DNA from: a virus
Virus record (IMG/VR): IMGVR_UViG_3300042346_000188
Location: 17,116 to 81,115 of that record
Direction: 5' to 3' (one strand)
Length of the DNA stretch: 64,000 nucleotides
The notes under the pieces are model-generated. The model worked only from the letters and a program-made list of their open reading frames with translations, ran no database searches and was not told the DNA's origin. Positions 35,582-44,095 of the stretch are shown piece after piece. Numbering within the stretch: the first letter of the stretch is position 1; each line of letters opens with the position of its first letter. Made by a program: the position numbers and the translations under genes.

Positions 35582-35609
35582 GCCTCGACACAATTGTCGG
35601 GGCTTTTTT
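35582..35609 (+). terminator. Terminator at the end of the structural block
   Basis: GCCTCGAC (35582-35589) pairs with GTCGGGGC (35596-35603, one G-T pair), loop ACAATT, followed by TTTTTT. It separates the tail operon from the early region. Confidence 0.9.
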
Positions 35610-35815: not shown

Positions 35816-35834
35816 ACCCCGTTAAATTAACCCT
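35816..35834 (+). promoter_or_regulatory. Class A motif 1 (putative phage RNA polymerase promoter)
   Basis: ACCCCGTTAAATTAACCCT, identical in five intergenic places. Here it lies between GC island 1 and the early block. Repetition without change, and position before each gene block, suggest a promoter for the phage-encoded RNA polymerase. The orientation is assumed from the downstream genes. Confidence 0.6.
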
Positions 35835-35880
35835 TGCGGCCTCCCCCTGTATTATCTCTCTTAGTAATACGGAAATAATA

Positions 35881-35902
35881 GTATCTTATATGAAGTACAA
35901 TA
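35881..35902 (+). promoter_or_regulatory. Class B early promoter 1
   Basis: Contains TATCTTATATGAAGTACAAT, which ends in a TACAAT box one base different from the sigma70 -10 consensus. It sits 24 bases before the first early gene. Upstream AATACGGAAAT is partly shared with the other two copies. No good -35 box is seen. Confidence 0.65.
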
Positions 35903-36769: not shown

Positions 36770-36791
36770 GTATCTTATATGAAGTACAATA
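36770..36791 (+). promoter_or_regulatory. Class B early promoter 2
   Basis: Second copy of the TATCTTATATGAAGTACAAT motif, preceded by AACGCGGGAAATACGG. It lies just after the AcrVA2-like gene and 18 bases before the next start. Confidence 0.65.
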
Positions 36792-37314: not shown

Positions 37315-37469
37315 GTGAATGGTATAGCTTTATCGAAGCAATGTTACTGGTTGGTTTTTATTTTGTTTATGTAGCTTACAATGTATTTGCAGAAGACTGC
37401 AAAGATAGACGTAAGTATTGCAAGGTACGTCGTTGGGCACGGCATGCTCTGCAAAAGGACTACAAATAA
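37311..37469 (+). CDS. Small single-pass membrane protein
   Basis: 52 aa. Residues ~8-25 (IEAMLLVGFYFVYVAYNV) form one membrane helix, followed by a strongly basic tail (CKDRRKYCKVRRWARHALQ). This predicts an inside-facing basic C-terminus. Starts in an ATGA overlap. Function unknown. Confidence 0.6.
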   Translation: MSEWYSFIEAMLLVGFYFVYVAYNVFAEDCKDRRKYCKVRRWARHALQKDYK

Positions 37470-37483
37470 ACGCGGAAAACGGG

Positions 37484-37505
37484 GTATCTTATATGAAGTA
37501 CAATA
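37484..37505 (+). promoter_or_regulatory. Class B early promoter 3
   Basis: Third copy of TATCTTATATGAAGTACAAT, preceded by AACGCGGAAAACGGG. It is followed 38 bases later by a gene with a strong ribosome binding site. Confidence 0.65.
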
Positions 37506-37543
37506 AGGTACCTCAATTCAATTAATCCAAGAGGAGAAAAATT

Positions 37544-37774
37544 ATGTTTAGTTTACTTGATTCACAATGTGCTTGTGTAGGTAGCAGTTATGATATATTC
37601 ACGGAAGAATATTTTGAAGCACTATACCATATCGAGTATGGCGACGGAAAAGAGTCTCACGCCTTCTTGGATCATCATTTGAAGGGTAAACAAAAATCTG
37701 AACCAGCGTCTGAGTTCAAAGACGTAAAAACAATACAGATTCCATTTGAGGAGGAGTTTGAAGGCTATTGGTAA
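37544..37774 (+). CDS. Small acidic early protein, unknown
   Basis: 76 aa with a very strong AGAGGAGA site, so probably made in quantity early. Acidic overall, ending FEEEFEGYW. No known motif recognised. Followed by a hairpin and hammerhead ribozyme 1. Confidence 0.7.
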   Translation: MFSLLDSQCACVGSSYDIFTEEYFEALYHIEYGDGKESHAFLDHHLKGKQKSEPASEFKDVKTIQIPFEEEFEGYW

Positions 37775-37782
37775 CAGCCGCA

Positions 37783-37800
37783 TAGACCTGAGTAGGTCTA
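37783..37800 (+). other. RNA hairpin upstream of hammerhead 1
   Basis: Perfect 7-bp stem TAGACCT/AGGTCTA with GAGT loop, directly after the stop of the preceding gene. No T-run follows, so it is probably not a terminator. After ribozyme cleavage it would sit near the new 3' end and could protect the upstream message. Confidence 0.6.
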
Positions 37801-37812
37801 TAAAGTGCTTAT

Positions 37813-37863
37813 GTGTATAAGGATGTGTATCCTATACTGATGAGACTATAAAGTCGAAACAAC
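37813..37863 (+). ncRNA. Hammerhead ribozyme 1
   Basis: Core CUGAUGA (37837-37843), stem II GACU-AUAA-AGUC (37844-37855), GAA (37856-37858) and A15.1 (37859). Cleavage triplet GUA at 37815-37817, so cutting is predicted after 37817. Stem I is UAAGGAU/AUCCU(A)UA with a GUGU loop. Stem III is short (about 3 bp), giving a minimal type III layout. It would cut the early transcript between the 76-aa gene and the next gene, 65 bases before its ATG. Confidence 0.8.
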
Positions 37864-37881
37864 TCCAAGAGGAAATTTACA

Positions 37882-38166
37882 ATGAAAAACAAATTAGATA
37901 AACTAGCTTTAATTGGTGTCCTAAACACTTTCTGGGTGTTTGAACGCAACGGGATGGGCGGTGTACCCTCCTTTGATTTCACTAATAAAAAAGCTGGAGT
38001 TAATGTCTGGCACATCGAGGGCGACAAAGTAGGCATAATGTTACTTGAAACAAAGGAGGTATTTGAAACTAACCTAGAATGGGATGAGATTTCCGAATCC
38101 TATGGGCTTGGAGATTGGGATATTCCAAGATTAAATTCTCTAATTAACTTAACTGAAGGTGATTAA
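37882..38166 (+). CDS. Small early protein, unknown
   Basis: 94 aa with an AAGAGGA site just 3' of hammerhead 1. Starts MKNKLDKLALIGVLNTFWVFERNG; acidic C-terminal half. No known domain recognised. The 5' end of its message would be created by ribozyme cleavage. Confidence 0.7.
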   Translation: MKNKLDKLALIGVLNTFWVFERNGMGGVPSFDFTNKKAGVNVWHIEGDKVGIMLLETKEVFETNLEWDEISESYGLGDWDIPRLNSLINLTEGD

Positions 38167-38167
38167 A

Positions 38168-38353
38168 ATGGAAGGTACAATTTTTGAAATTGGTGGTTAT
38201 GAGTTTTACATAGCTTGGAATGAAAAGATGACAATCTACAAAGTATGGTATGATCGCGGCCATTACCTTGATAGACGCGCTCCAAGGTTTGAATGCACTT
38301 CTTATGAGGAATCTGTGGCATTCTGTAAACTCAAATACGCTTACTGTGGGTAA
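38168..38353 (+). CDS. Small early protein, unknown
   Basis: 61 aa (MEGTIFEIGGYEFYIAWNEK). An in-frame GTG at 38159 is possible, but the ATG with AAGGTGA upstream is preferred. Its stop codon is immediately followed by hammerhead 2. Unrecognised. Confidence 0.65.
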   Translation: MEGTIFEIGGYEFYIAWNEKMTIYKVWYDRGHYLDRRAPRFECTSYEESVAFCKLKYAYCG

Positions 38354-38406
38354 GTGTCTCGGGATGTGTATCCCAACTGACGAGTCTAAAAAGACGAAAC
38401 ACACTT
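38352..38406 (+). ncRNA. Hammerhead ribozyme 2
   Basis: Core CUGACGA (38377-38383), stem II GUCU-AAAA-AGAC (38384-38395), GAA and A15.1 at 38396-38399. Classical GUC triplet at 38356-38358, so cleavage is predicted after 38358. Stem I has GGGAU/AUCCC with the same GUGU loop as copy 1. Stem III is GUGU/ACAC, or a 6-bp AAGUGU/ACACUU pairing with a slip. Base pairs change in a compensated way compared with copy 1 (stem II A-U to U-A, stem I A-U to G-C). Confidence 0.85.
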
Positions 38407-38418
38407 AGGAGTTATATT

Positions 38419-38595
38419 ATGTTTACTATTGAAATCAATGATGTAGAAATTGAAATGAAAGAAACAGGAATGGGTATTTGGGAAGGTTCTAAAGAATTTT
38501 ATCAAGTAGTATTTGATGAATTTCTTCAAGAATTGTTTGTAGCAGCAATGCTAGGCAATCGTATTGTTAAGTGTGAGAGTCAATTCTTATGCTAA
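38419..38595 (+). CDS. Small early protein, unknown
   Basis: 58 aa (MFTIEINDVEIEMKETGMGI) with TAGGAGT seven bases upstream, right after hammerhead 2. Acidic N-terminal half. Overlaps the next start by 7 bases (ATGCTAA). Unrecognised. Confidence 0.65.
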   Translation: MFTIEINDVEIEMKETGMGIWEGSKEFYQVVFDEFLQELFVAAMLGNRIVKCESQFLC

Positions 38596-39368: not shown

Positions 39369-39432
39369 ACCCCTTTCAGATTCGATTCCTTAACAGGTTT
39401 CGGGTTTGAGAGGGGTTCCTCCTTTATTTTTT
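39369..39432 (+). terminator. Terminator upstream of the RNA polymerase gene
   Basis: ACCCCTTTCA pairs with TGAGAGGGGT (one G-T pair) around a long inner loop, followed by TTATTTTTT. It probably limits early read-through into the polymerase gene. Confidence 0.6.
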
Positions 39433-39446
39433 CCATTTTGGTACTT

Positions 39447-41666
39447 ATGCGAAATAAATTATTACGTTCTTTAAAGTCTAGAATTGTATCTGAGATTGCT
39501 CCTCAATCTCCATTACGATTCTTAAAGAAGTTGAATATCGAAGATCATCTTGATGAGATAATTGCCAACGCTTATTTGTATACTAGGCCTAAGAAAGGCT
39601 CTGATAAGCAGATTATAATGTCAGAGGTAATTAGTATTCTTGGCCATAACATGCGAAAAGGTGAAAAGAAAGACTCTGCTACTGCAGCAAGATGCGGAGC
39701 ATTCATTCTGTATTCTTTTGACAGCTTAGGTCTAACAGAAATTGTAATGACTAATGCAGCCAATGGGCACGGTACATATATTGTTAATGTAATTGATGAA
39801 AAGAGTATGCAAGAGTTGTGGGAAACTGTTGGTAGGCAAGGAGGTAAGGGAAAACTGCCCTCACTAGTACCATATGAAGATTGGAAAGGGTTTAAACATT
39901 CTACAGGCTTGTCTTTAGTTAAGACACAGTCTAGAGAGGTTGCAGCTACACTAACACCAGCTACTCATCCTATTGTATTTGAAGCAGTAAATAAGAGTCA
40001 AAGAGTTGGCTGGATTATAAACCAAGAAGTATACGCAATTGCTAAGTGGGCGTTGAGTAATAAAACAGAAGCATTCTCAGATATTTGGGAACAAAACAAT
40101 CCACAGGCAAGAACAACAAAGCTGCGAGAAACCAAAGCAATTTTAAGTATTGCAGATAAGTTTACTGATACAACTTTCTATCATCTGTACTACCTTGATT
40201 TTAGAGGTCGTAAGTACCCTACAACAGCATATCTGCATGAACAATCTTCAGATATAGCTAAAGGCTTACTGCTTAGAAAAGACAAGAAAGTTATTGGACA
40301 AGAGGGTTTCTTTTGGCTATGTGTATCTATTGCATCTAATTGGGCAGGCAGCTCAGGCAGAGAAGATGGTGCAAAGACTGACAAAATACCACTTAGAGAT
40401 AGATACCATTGGGTTCTAGACAATGAAGAGATTTTAACAGCTTATGCAATGTCGCCTAAGTTGCATCAAGGTTGGATGGATGCTGATAAGCCTTGGCAAT
40501 TCCTTGCAGCTTGTGTAGAGCTTAAGAATGCATTAAGTATGGGTTCAATGTACTTACAGTATGAATCACATATAGAATGCTTTATTGACGGTTCTACTAA
40601 TGGCTCTCAACATTTAAGTGCGTTAACTAGAGATGAAGTTACTGCCCCTTATGTTAATTTAGTACCGCTAGATATGCCTGGTGATTTATATGCATACGTA
40701 GCTGCTCATGTGTGGATGAAGATTGATTCAGTTCTTAGCAGAATGCCACCTGCATTAATACTAGAATGTGAAGAATTCATTGATGGATTAATATCGCTGA
40801 AGAAGAAAATTGTAGCTGCAGAGCCTAAATCTGATTTGAGAGCAGAATTAGTAATGCAAATTAGACAGTACAAAAAAGATTGGGAATCTGTTGGCAATAA
40901 AGCTGCACCTGTATTCTGGGGTAGAATTAAAGACTCTAAGCAAAGACGTAAAATTGTAAAGAGAAATGTAATGACACTACCTTATGGGGGCTCTAGCTAT
41001 GGTCTATCTGAACAACAAATAGATGATTCAAAGAAACATGGCATAGAGTTGTTAATGAATATGGAGCATAAATGGGCAGCTTGGATGGGCAGATTGGTAT
41101 ATGAAGATGCTAAAGACTCGCTAGAAAGACCTATGATGTTGTTGTCTGTATTTGAAAAAGCTGGTGCAGCTGCAGAGAAAAGAGGTCAATTCTTAGAGTG
41201 GGTTGTGCCTGTAACAAACTTTCCTGTAGTACAAAACTATACAGAGGGTAAGACTAAGAGAATACATATTCAGTGGGGGCCTCGAATTGGTATTAGAAGC
41301 GATACCACAGGATACTTTGGGAATGATCTGCAATTGCATGTATGTTTCATTGAGGATCAAGTTCCCTCAAAAGGAAAGCAGTCTCAAGGAGCAGCACCTA
41401 ATGTAATCCATTCTTTGGATGCAGCACATCTAGCAATGACAACAGTTAGATGTGATTTTCCTATCACTACAATACATGATTCATATGGATGCCTATTAGC
41501 AGACATGCCTAAGCTTTATCGTATTGTGCGTGAGACATTTGTTGAGTTGTACCGAGATAATCCTTTGTACCCTATCATAGATAAGATTGATGGTGATCTT
41601 ACTTATGTAGATATGGGTGATTTGGATGTTAATTTAATTCTAGAAAGTGAATATGCTTTCGCATAG
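39447..41666 (+). CDS. T7-type single-subunit DNA-directed RNA polymerase
   Basis: 739 aa, shorter than T7 RNAP (883). The DFRGR motif starts at Asp 251. Motif A FIDGSTNGSQHLSAL has catalytic Asp 381. Motif B KRNVMTLPYGG has Lys 505 and Tyr 513, corresponding to T7 Lys 631 and Tyr 639, with Pro replacing the Ala before the Tyr. Motif C IHDSYG has catalytic Asp 678. Start ATG at 39447 is preferred over an upstream TTG. It is placed in the early block, so host RNA polymerase would make it and it would then read the class A motifs. The N-terminal promoter-recognition region is strongly diverged. Confidence 0.95.
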   Translation: MRNKLLRSLKSRIVSEIAPQSPLRFLKKLNIEDHLDEIIANAYLYTRPKKGSDKQIIMSEVISILGHNMRKGEKKDSATAARCGAFILYSFDSLGLTEIVMTNAANGHGTYIVNVIDEKSMQELWETVGRQGGKGKLPSLVPYEDWKGFKHSTGLSLVKTQSREVAATLTPATHPIVFEAVNKSQRVGWIINQEVYAIAKWALSNKTEAFSDIWEQNNPQARTTKLRETKAILSIADKFTDTTFYHLYYLDFRGRKYPTTAYLHEQSSDIAKGLLLRKDKKVIGQEGFFWLCVSIASNWAGSSGREDGAKTDKIPLRDRYHWVLDNEEILTAYAMSPKLHQGWMDADKPWQFLAACVELKNALSMGSMYLQYESHIECFIDGSTNGSQHLSALTRDEVTAPYVNLVPLDMPGDLYAYVAAHVWMKIDSVLSRMPPALILECEEFIDGLISLKKKIVAAEPKSDLRAELVMQIRQYKKDWESVGNKAAPVFWGRIKDSKQRRKIVKRNVMTLPYGGSSYGLSEQQIDDSKKHGIELLMNMEHKWAAWMGRLVYEDAKDSLERPMMLLSVFEKAGAAAEKRGQFLEWVVPVTNFPVVQNYTEGKTKRIHIQWGPRIGIRSDTTGYFGNDLQLHVCFIEDQVPSKGKQSQGAAPNVIHSLDAAHLAMTTVRCDFPITTIHDSYGCLLADMPKLYRIVRETFVELYRDNPLYPIIDKIDGDLTYVDMGDLDVNLILESEYAFA

Positions 41667-43549: not shown

Positions 43550-43568
43550 ACCCCGTTAAATTAACCCT
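43550..43568 (+). promoter_or_regulatory. Class A motif 2 (putative phage promoter)
   Basis: Exact copy of ACCCCGTTAAATTAACCCT, 30 bases before the ssDNA-binding protein gene that opens the replication block. Confidence 0.6.
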
Positions 43569-43597
43569 TACATCAACCTACTATATGAGATTTAAAA

Positions 43598-44095
43598 ATG
43601 GCAATTCTTAAAAATATTGAAATACACTGGCCACAACTTGATAAACCTGAATCAAAGTATAATCCTCAGAATCCAAGATGGACAATGCAATGCCGCACTT
43701 ATGATAAGGCTCTCTCGAAGCAAGTTAAAGCAATGGGAGTTAAGGTTGAGGAAGAGGAATTACCAGATGGTACAGAATACTGGAGATTCTCTTTAGGAAA
43801 GAATACTGTTTCAAAAACTACAGGGAACAAGAATCCGCCTGTAGAAGTTTTAGATGGTAACTTACAACCAATTCCTTCTAAGTCTATTGGCAATGGTTCT
43901 GTTGCAAATGTACGTGTTTTAGAATGGGAAGATAAGAATAAGGCTGGCGTAAGTGCTGGTGCAATCTTAATGGCAGTACAGATTACAAAATTAATCCCTT
44001 ATGTAGCAAAAGGTATTGATAAGGAATCTTTTGAAGTTACAGAGACAGAGATTGTATATGAAGAAATGCCAGATATTGATGGGGATGTATTCTAA
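43598..44095 (+). CDS. Single-stranded DNA-binding protein (T7 gp2.5-like)
   Basis: 165 aa. SIGNGSVANVRVLEWEDKN is typical of phage ssDNA-binding OB-fold proteins (DUF2815/gp2.5-like). The acidic C-terminal tail EEMPDIDGDVF ends in Phe, like the tail of T7 gp2.5 that touches polymerase and helicase. First gene after class A motif 2, leading the replication operon. TAATG overlap with the next gene. Confidence 0.75.
   Translation: MAILKNIEIHWPQLDKPESKYNPQNPRWTMQCRTYDKALSKQVKAMGVKVEEEELPDGTEYWRFSLGKNTVSKTTGNKNPPVEVLDGNLQPIPSKSIGNGSVANVRVLEWEDKNKAGVSAGAILMAVQITKLIPYVAKGIDKESFEVTETEIVYEEMPDIDGDVF

Follow-up and report, generated by a model that had tools for sequence, protein, structure and literature searches.

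Two type III hammerhead ribozymes lie between small genes of a tailed phage, and they belong to a large phage family that recurs just upstream of Shine-Dalgarno (SD) sequences and start codons. The most probable explanation is that these ribozymes cut a multigene phage transcript into separate messages with structured ends. We refer to the 64-kb stretch analysed, part of an 81-kb virus record, as the window.

A pair of hammerheads between small genes

The window comes from a tailed phage and carries very long tail genes, a PhoH-like gene and a T7-type RNA polymerase gene, together with genes for DNA polymerase, primase-helicase, ribonucleotide reductase and terminase. The hammerhead pair sits inside a run of small genes just 5' of the polymerase gene, a location from which the flanking small genes are presumed to be early. 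A DNA similarity search of the hammerhead region against named phages gave no match. The features of this region are as follows.

35582..35603, + strand: terminator-like hairpin before the small-gene operon
35881-35902, 36770-36791 and 37484-37505, + strand (third copy): 22-nt exact repeat GTATCTTATATGAAGTACAATA, three copies
37544..37774, + strand: small ORF of 76 aa preceding copy 1
37782..37801, + strand: modest 8-bp hairpin AUAGACCU-GAGU-AGGUCUAU, after the upstream stop and ahead of copy 1
37807..37811, + strand: GCUUA, able to pair with the hairpin loop; a possible H-type pseudoknot, suggestive only
37808..37867, + strand: hammerhead copy 1, type III, predicted cleavage after A37817, stem III of about 3 bp, probable chimera
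37882..38166, + strand: small ORF of 94 aa following copy 1, SD AGAGG
38168..38353, + strand: small ORF with its stop codon directly adjoining copy 2
38349..38407, + strand: hammerhead copy 2, type III, predicted cleavage after C38358, stem III GUGU/ACAC
38419..38595, + strand: small ORF of 58 aa following copy 2, SD AGGAG
39409..39425, + strand: terminator-like hairpin between the small-gene operon and the polymerase gene
39438..41666, + strand: T7-type single-subunit RNA polymerase gene

An earlier reading of this DNA, made from its sequence alone, had proposed two hammerheads with compensatory base changes, each between the stop and start codons of neighbouring genes. All of this is borne out: both are type III and the Rfam family RF00008 matches both. 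Copy 1 combines the triplet GUA (37815-37817), CUGAUGA (37837-37843) and GAAA (37856-37859) with stem I UAAGGAU/AUCCU[A]UA around GUGU and stem II GACU-AUAA-AGUC. The corresponding elements of copy 2, 541 nt away, are GUC (38356-38358), CUGACGA (38377-38383), GAAA (38396-38399), stem I U(C)GGGAU/AUCCC(A)A around GUGU and stem II GUCU-AAAA-AGAC, so that stems I and II show exactly the double base changes described. Copy 1 is placed between the stop at 37772-37774 and the ATG at 37882; copy 2 directly follows the stop at 38351-38353 and precedes the ATG at 38419. Both copies possess the conserved core CUGANGA...GAAA, an NUH cleavage triplet with a U16.1-A15.1 pair and the type III permutation, in which stem III is open and stems I and II are closed by loops. 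The three helices around the core are kept by covariation across the family, and copy 2 is able to form all of them.

A large family below the Rfam cutoff

In a permissive Rfam scan of 10 kb with 4,227 families, RF00008 gave the two top matches, at copy 2 (35.0 bits, E=1.4e-4) and copy 1 (27.1 bits, E=0.023), whereas Rfam at gathering cutoffs reported nothing over the whole window, since both copies score under the curated RF00008 cutoff of 48.5 bits. A covariance score below threshold had been named as grounds for rejecting the pair, and for RF00008 the scores do fall there (35.0 and 27.1 vs 48.5). That cutoff is nevertheless a poor test, because almost all obvious family members also fall under it: it passes only one hammerhead in 16 other loci that hold some 30.

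We built a covariance model, R1, from 42 distinct sequences that included both window copies. With R1 the copies scored 65.2 and 58.0 bits (E=5e-17 and 7.7e-15 over 64 kb; next match 0.33). Because the window copies sat in the R1 training set, it is the Rfam match that counts as independent evidence. No third hammerhead was found with R1 in the 81-kb record. A minimal core pattern returned seven matches against 1.5 expected; beyond the two copies, these lacked the helices and were rejected.

A scan of the viral contigs of IMG/VR for stem-loop I plus the core pattern gave 69 stretches, nearly all of them complete hammerheads on readout, and added some 60 loci to the pair. Six pattern matches were judged false from their sequences (L067, L079, L081, L083, L096 and L105). 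A second viral-contig pattern yielded only eight loci, all real by model score, and in a genome-contig pattern scan chance matches were mixed with real ones and told apart by the model. In the 69 loci of the first scan R1 finds about 113 convincing matches, some duplicated between near-identical contigs, and many of these matches have loop-flanking stems outside the requirements of the pattern. A phage contig may hold up to seven copies, and several phage records hold one only.

Among the 42 distinct sequences, 90.6% of base-pair cells contain standard pairs, and double-change cells number 182, compared with 53 after shuffling. The covariation score is 0.648, vs 0.166 for shuffled alignments and at most 0.089 in slid registers. 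This signal is carried by stems III, II and the lower part of stem I; the GGAT/ATCC part of stem I was set by the search pattern and proves nothing. Likewise, the invariance of GGATGTGTATCC in alignment A1 stems from the search pattern and was left out as evidence. A UGUGU-type loop I recurs with differing flanking stems, which is suggestive of a tertiary contact between loops I and II.

When a 126-nt query was run against a collection of phage isolates, the element was found in Bruynoghevirus phages of Pseudomonas (PaP3, MR299-2, Clew-3, Delta and others). This element scores 62.1 bits, has the same loop type and stands 5 nt before the first early gene (PaP3, Clew-3); its end adjoins the start codon of the gene annotated first beyond the terminal repeat. 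A likely SD (AAGGA) lies inside the 3' arm of its stem II, and the start codon follows GAAA by 5 nt. The hammerheads occupy 1090-1148 in Clew-3 (L134) and 32-90 in MR299-2 (L135); weaker second hammerhead-like matches occur at 2435-2496 in L134 and 1370-1436 in L135. A PaP3 hammerhead was listed earlier among active core variants, and it may differ from the PaP3 element found here (PMC3088659).

Copies are also present in contigs assigned to Patescibacteria and other uncultured bacteria. The Patescibacteria (CPR) type III hammerheads (L145, L152, L156, L165, L178, L179, L190, L192, L193, L194, L199 and L205) mostly lack the clear SD/start arrangement of the phages, and a chromosomal or a phage origin is a candidate for them. 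One further hammerhead (L127, 12305-12363) has the 15.1-16.1 pair swapped to U15.1-A16.1, a variant described as active but slow (PMC3088659). Arrays in two unlike phage groups (L103, L130, L104 and L097) flank genes for a MoxR/CobS-type AAA ATPase and a VWA protein. The array region of L132 showed no DNA similarity to named phages.

Hairpin, ribozyme and start codon

The position of the ribozymes relative to genes is regular. An SD with a start codon lies just downstream in 79 of 87 distinct copies, at a median of 34 nt past GAAA; 88.5% of the 87 copies are within 60 nt of an SD-preceded start codon, compared with 17% of random positions in the same loci. On the other side, the stop codon of an upstream ORF is no more than 150 nt away in 77/87. 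Immediately upstream there is often a stable hairpin: 35 of 60 nonredundant copies have a hairpin z below -2, vs 8/60 for the segment 60 nt further upstream. Example hairpins are near-perfect stems that end a few bases 5' of stem III, and an AGACC/GGUCU hairpin is common to the window and L008, L009, L119, L136, L215, L217 and L222. No such hairpin precedes copy 2.

Within the group to which the window belongs, all 12 examples have a hairpin loop able to pair with the bases immediately 5' of stem III, and this pairing changes on both sides between groups (UGAG/CUUA, AAGC/GCUU, AGAC/GUCU). Letter shuffles never match the observed pairing sum, a comparison that covers 12 examples of few and related sequences. 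An upstream H-type pseudoknot is thus suggested by these sequences.

Elsewhere, arrays separate genes for a MoxR-type AAA ATPase, DUF3150 and a DUF2201 metallopeptidase/VWA protein; the layout is therefore not limited to small genes like those of the window. The sequence-only reading had proposed self-cleavage of an early message. A processing role is supported, and its restriction to early messages is not.

Other repeated sequences occur near the pair. Each copy of the 22-nt repeat lies roughly 20-40 nt before a start codon. CGCGG and A-rich bases usually stand in front of the repeat, and for one copy a 10-bp hairpin can arise from its flanking sequences. The repeat is also found in L005, L006, L008, L009, L119, L136, L211-L223 and L230, and we regard it as a candidate promoter or RNA element. 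A general late promoter of the phage polymerase is disfavoured, given that within the 64-kb window the repeat is confined to the small-gene region. A GGGGUAUCUUAUGCCCUUGCCUAC-like sequence, resembling the window's repeat at its start, lies upstream of one hammerhead each in the array phages L118, L076, L132, L071, L124 and L104. Another shared sequence, ACCCCGTTAAATTAACCCTT, is present at 35816-35852, 5' of the small-gene operon, and at 43550-43586, just 5' of the gene at 43598; it may serve as a promoter or as the site of a regulator.

Copy 1 is probably a recombinant

Stem III had been described as short, particularly in copy 1, and this proves relevant to activity. The window and contig L215 are 89.6% identical over 37467-38141, with the identity unevenly spread. 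From CUGAUGAG onward copy 1 fits L215 (GACUAUAAAGUCGAAACAACU), and its 5' half fits the L119 form (UCUAUAAAGUGCUUA..GUGUAUA). The stem III arms are AGUUGU/ACAACU (6 bp) in L215 and AGUGU/ACACU (5 bp) in L119; copy 1 sets GUGU opposite ACAA, which leaves 3 bp. From these sequences, copy 1 is probably a recombinant of two parental hammerheads with mismatched stem III arms.

Predicted folding agrees with a difference between the copies. The penalty for adopting the hammerhead fold has a family median of 0.5 kcal/mol and is 0.0 for L215, 4.3 for copy 2 and worst of 81 for copy 1, where, forcing only true pairs, the hammerhead is about 10 kcal/mol above the best alternative fold; as ViennaRNA leaves out the tertiary loop contact, the copy 1 value is a warning and no proof of inactivity. 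In a 66-nt context the stems of copy 2 have probabilities of about 0.56-1.0, except for the terminal U-A pair of stem I, and in 96- and 251-nt contexts the predicted probability of its stem III is low (0.01-0.09). Weak stems III occur in natural hammerheads (PMC3088659). Copy 2 looks functional and copy 1 may be slow, poorly cleaving or dead. Given the probable recombinant nature of copy 1 and its broken stem III, equal activity of the two should not be assumed.

Relatives with 98% polymerase identity keep only copy 2, with 37525-38156 (including copy 1) swapped for another ORF, and those with 85% identity have only a copy 1-like site. Since relatives at 85-98% polymerase identity carry just one, neither site is essential.

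Probable processing of multigene transcripts and alternative roles

Upon transcription, copy 2 would cut the RNA after 38358 and copy 1, if it still folds, after 37817. The downstream product would begin with a 5'-hydroxyl and the stem I hairpin, which opens a leader of about 60 nt leading to the SD and the next start codon; the upstream product would end in a 2',3'-cyclic phosphate. For copy 1 and more than half of the wider family, the predicted cut falls just behind a stable hairpin. Levels of neighbouring genes could in this way be decoupled without a host nuclease. The covariation, the position before SD and start codons and the upstream hairpins that resemble 3' ends give good support to hammerhead identity and to a role in RNA processing, with cleavage itself a prediction from sequence. 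The presence, covariation and placement of the ribozymes and their association with hairpins lead us to infer cleavage in the cell and an effect on message stability. Structured ends and a missing 5' monophosphate slow bacterial mRNA decay, and slower decay of this kind is the putative benefit here.

It could be argued that the hammerheads are passengers, or recombination boundaries for cassette swaps, tolerated between genes with cleavage unimportant. The swapped segment in the 98% relatives, the apparent recombination of copy 1 at the conserved core and the variable neighbouring genes all fit such a view. However, a mere recombination target has no need of stems that covary to hold pairing, the tight positioning before SD/start codons also counts against this view, and we consider it unlikely. 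Chance resemblance without function, to which the Rfam scores under the gathering cutoff might point, is hardly credible given the E-values, the covariation and the repeated recurrence at gene starts.

Other roles would keep cleavage and change its purpose. As regulated switches, the ribozymes would let ribosome binding, a ligand or a protein choose between cleavage and translation; ribosome and ribozyme may indeed compete in Bruynoghevirus, where the first gene probably has its SD within the 3' arm of stem II. Most ribozymes, including those of the window, leave the SD free and carry no inserted ligand-binding domain, and we regard a switch as improbable. Alternatively, the pair on one strand could free a 541-nt RNA whose 5'-hydroxyl and cyclic phosphate ends are joined into a stable, retrozyme-like circle for the genes between, and arrays in other phages would allow the same. 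Yet the 5' arm of copy 2 and the 3' arm of copy 1 pair over 3 bp only, which does not favour rejoining, several phage records have a single copy, and circles sought from clustered phage hammerheads were not found (PMC3088659), so that this outcome seems more improbable still.

Cutting of multigene transcripts into separate messages thus remains our preferred reading. A further proposal, held tentatively and with more doubt than belief, is that phages share a transferable mRNA-end module, consisting of a 3'-capping hairpin or pseudoknot, a hammerhead and an SD, which also serves as a joint for cassette recombination. If so, each gene would obtain its own 3' and 5' ends.

The family is large, regularly placed and present in phages that are simple to grow in the laboratory (PaP3, Clew-3 and other Bruynoghevirus), which makes the purpose of phage hammerheads directly testable in laboratory Pseudomonas phages. 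Should processing be demonstrated, phages with T7-type polymerases would substitute RNA for a host nuclease. Rfam cutoffs currently hide almost all of these phage hammerheads, a mostly unannotated set in many phages.

Comparison with known systems

In phage T7, RNase III processes early messages between genes. The window resembles this system in having predicted intergenic cuts upstream of or around a T7-type polymerase gene and structured product ends; it differs in that self-cleavage is predicted, with 5'-hydroxyl and cyclic phosphate ends in place of a host RNase III cut. The core, the NUH triplet, the open stem III and the small loops closing stems I and II are those of RF00008 and the plant satellite type III hammerheads. 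Unlike these, the window copies lie in a phage DNA genome between protein genes, score under the RF00008 cutoff and have a shorter stem III, and many family members open stem II with a U-U mismatch. Plant retrozymes (PMC6155905) also have two type III hammerheads on one strand, but a noncoding circular mobile element is not seen here, and protein genes lie between the window copies.

A 2017 review (PMC6155905) described the role of prokaryotic and phage hammerheads as open. The closest parallel is with the clusters of Perreault et al. 2011 (PMC3088659), including PaP3 and haloviruses HF1/HF2, where hammerheads flank single prophage or phage genes, some just before start codons, and processing to operon- or gene-length messages was proposed. 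In that work clustered phage hammerheads cleave native transcripts of about 2 kb in vitro, an early 5' end mapped in a halovirus falls at a hammerhead, and a U10.1-U11.1 mismatch and a weak stem III recur among hammerheads, as they do here. In contrast to those clusters, a single type III form with loop I of the UGUGU type prevails in the present family, even among dissimilar phages, and a stable hairpin regularly precedes the hammerhead. No description of the hairpin-ribozyme-SD layout and its breadth across phages was found in a literature search that covered few subscription papers. That clustered phage hammerheads process long transcripts was already proposed in 2011 (PMC3088659); new are the size of the family, the failure of Rfam cutoffs to show it, its order of hairpin, ribozyme and SD, and the swapping of cassettes at the ribozyme.
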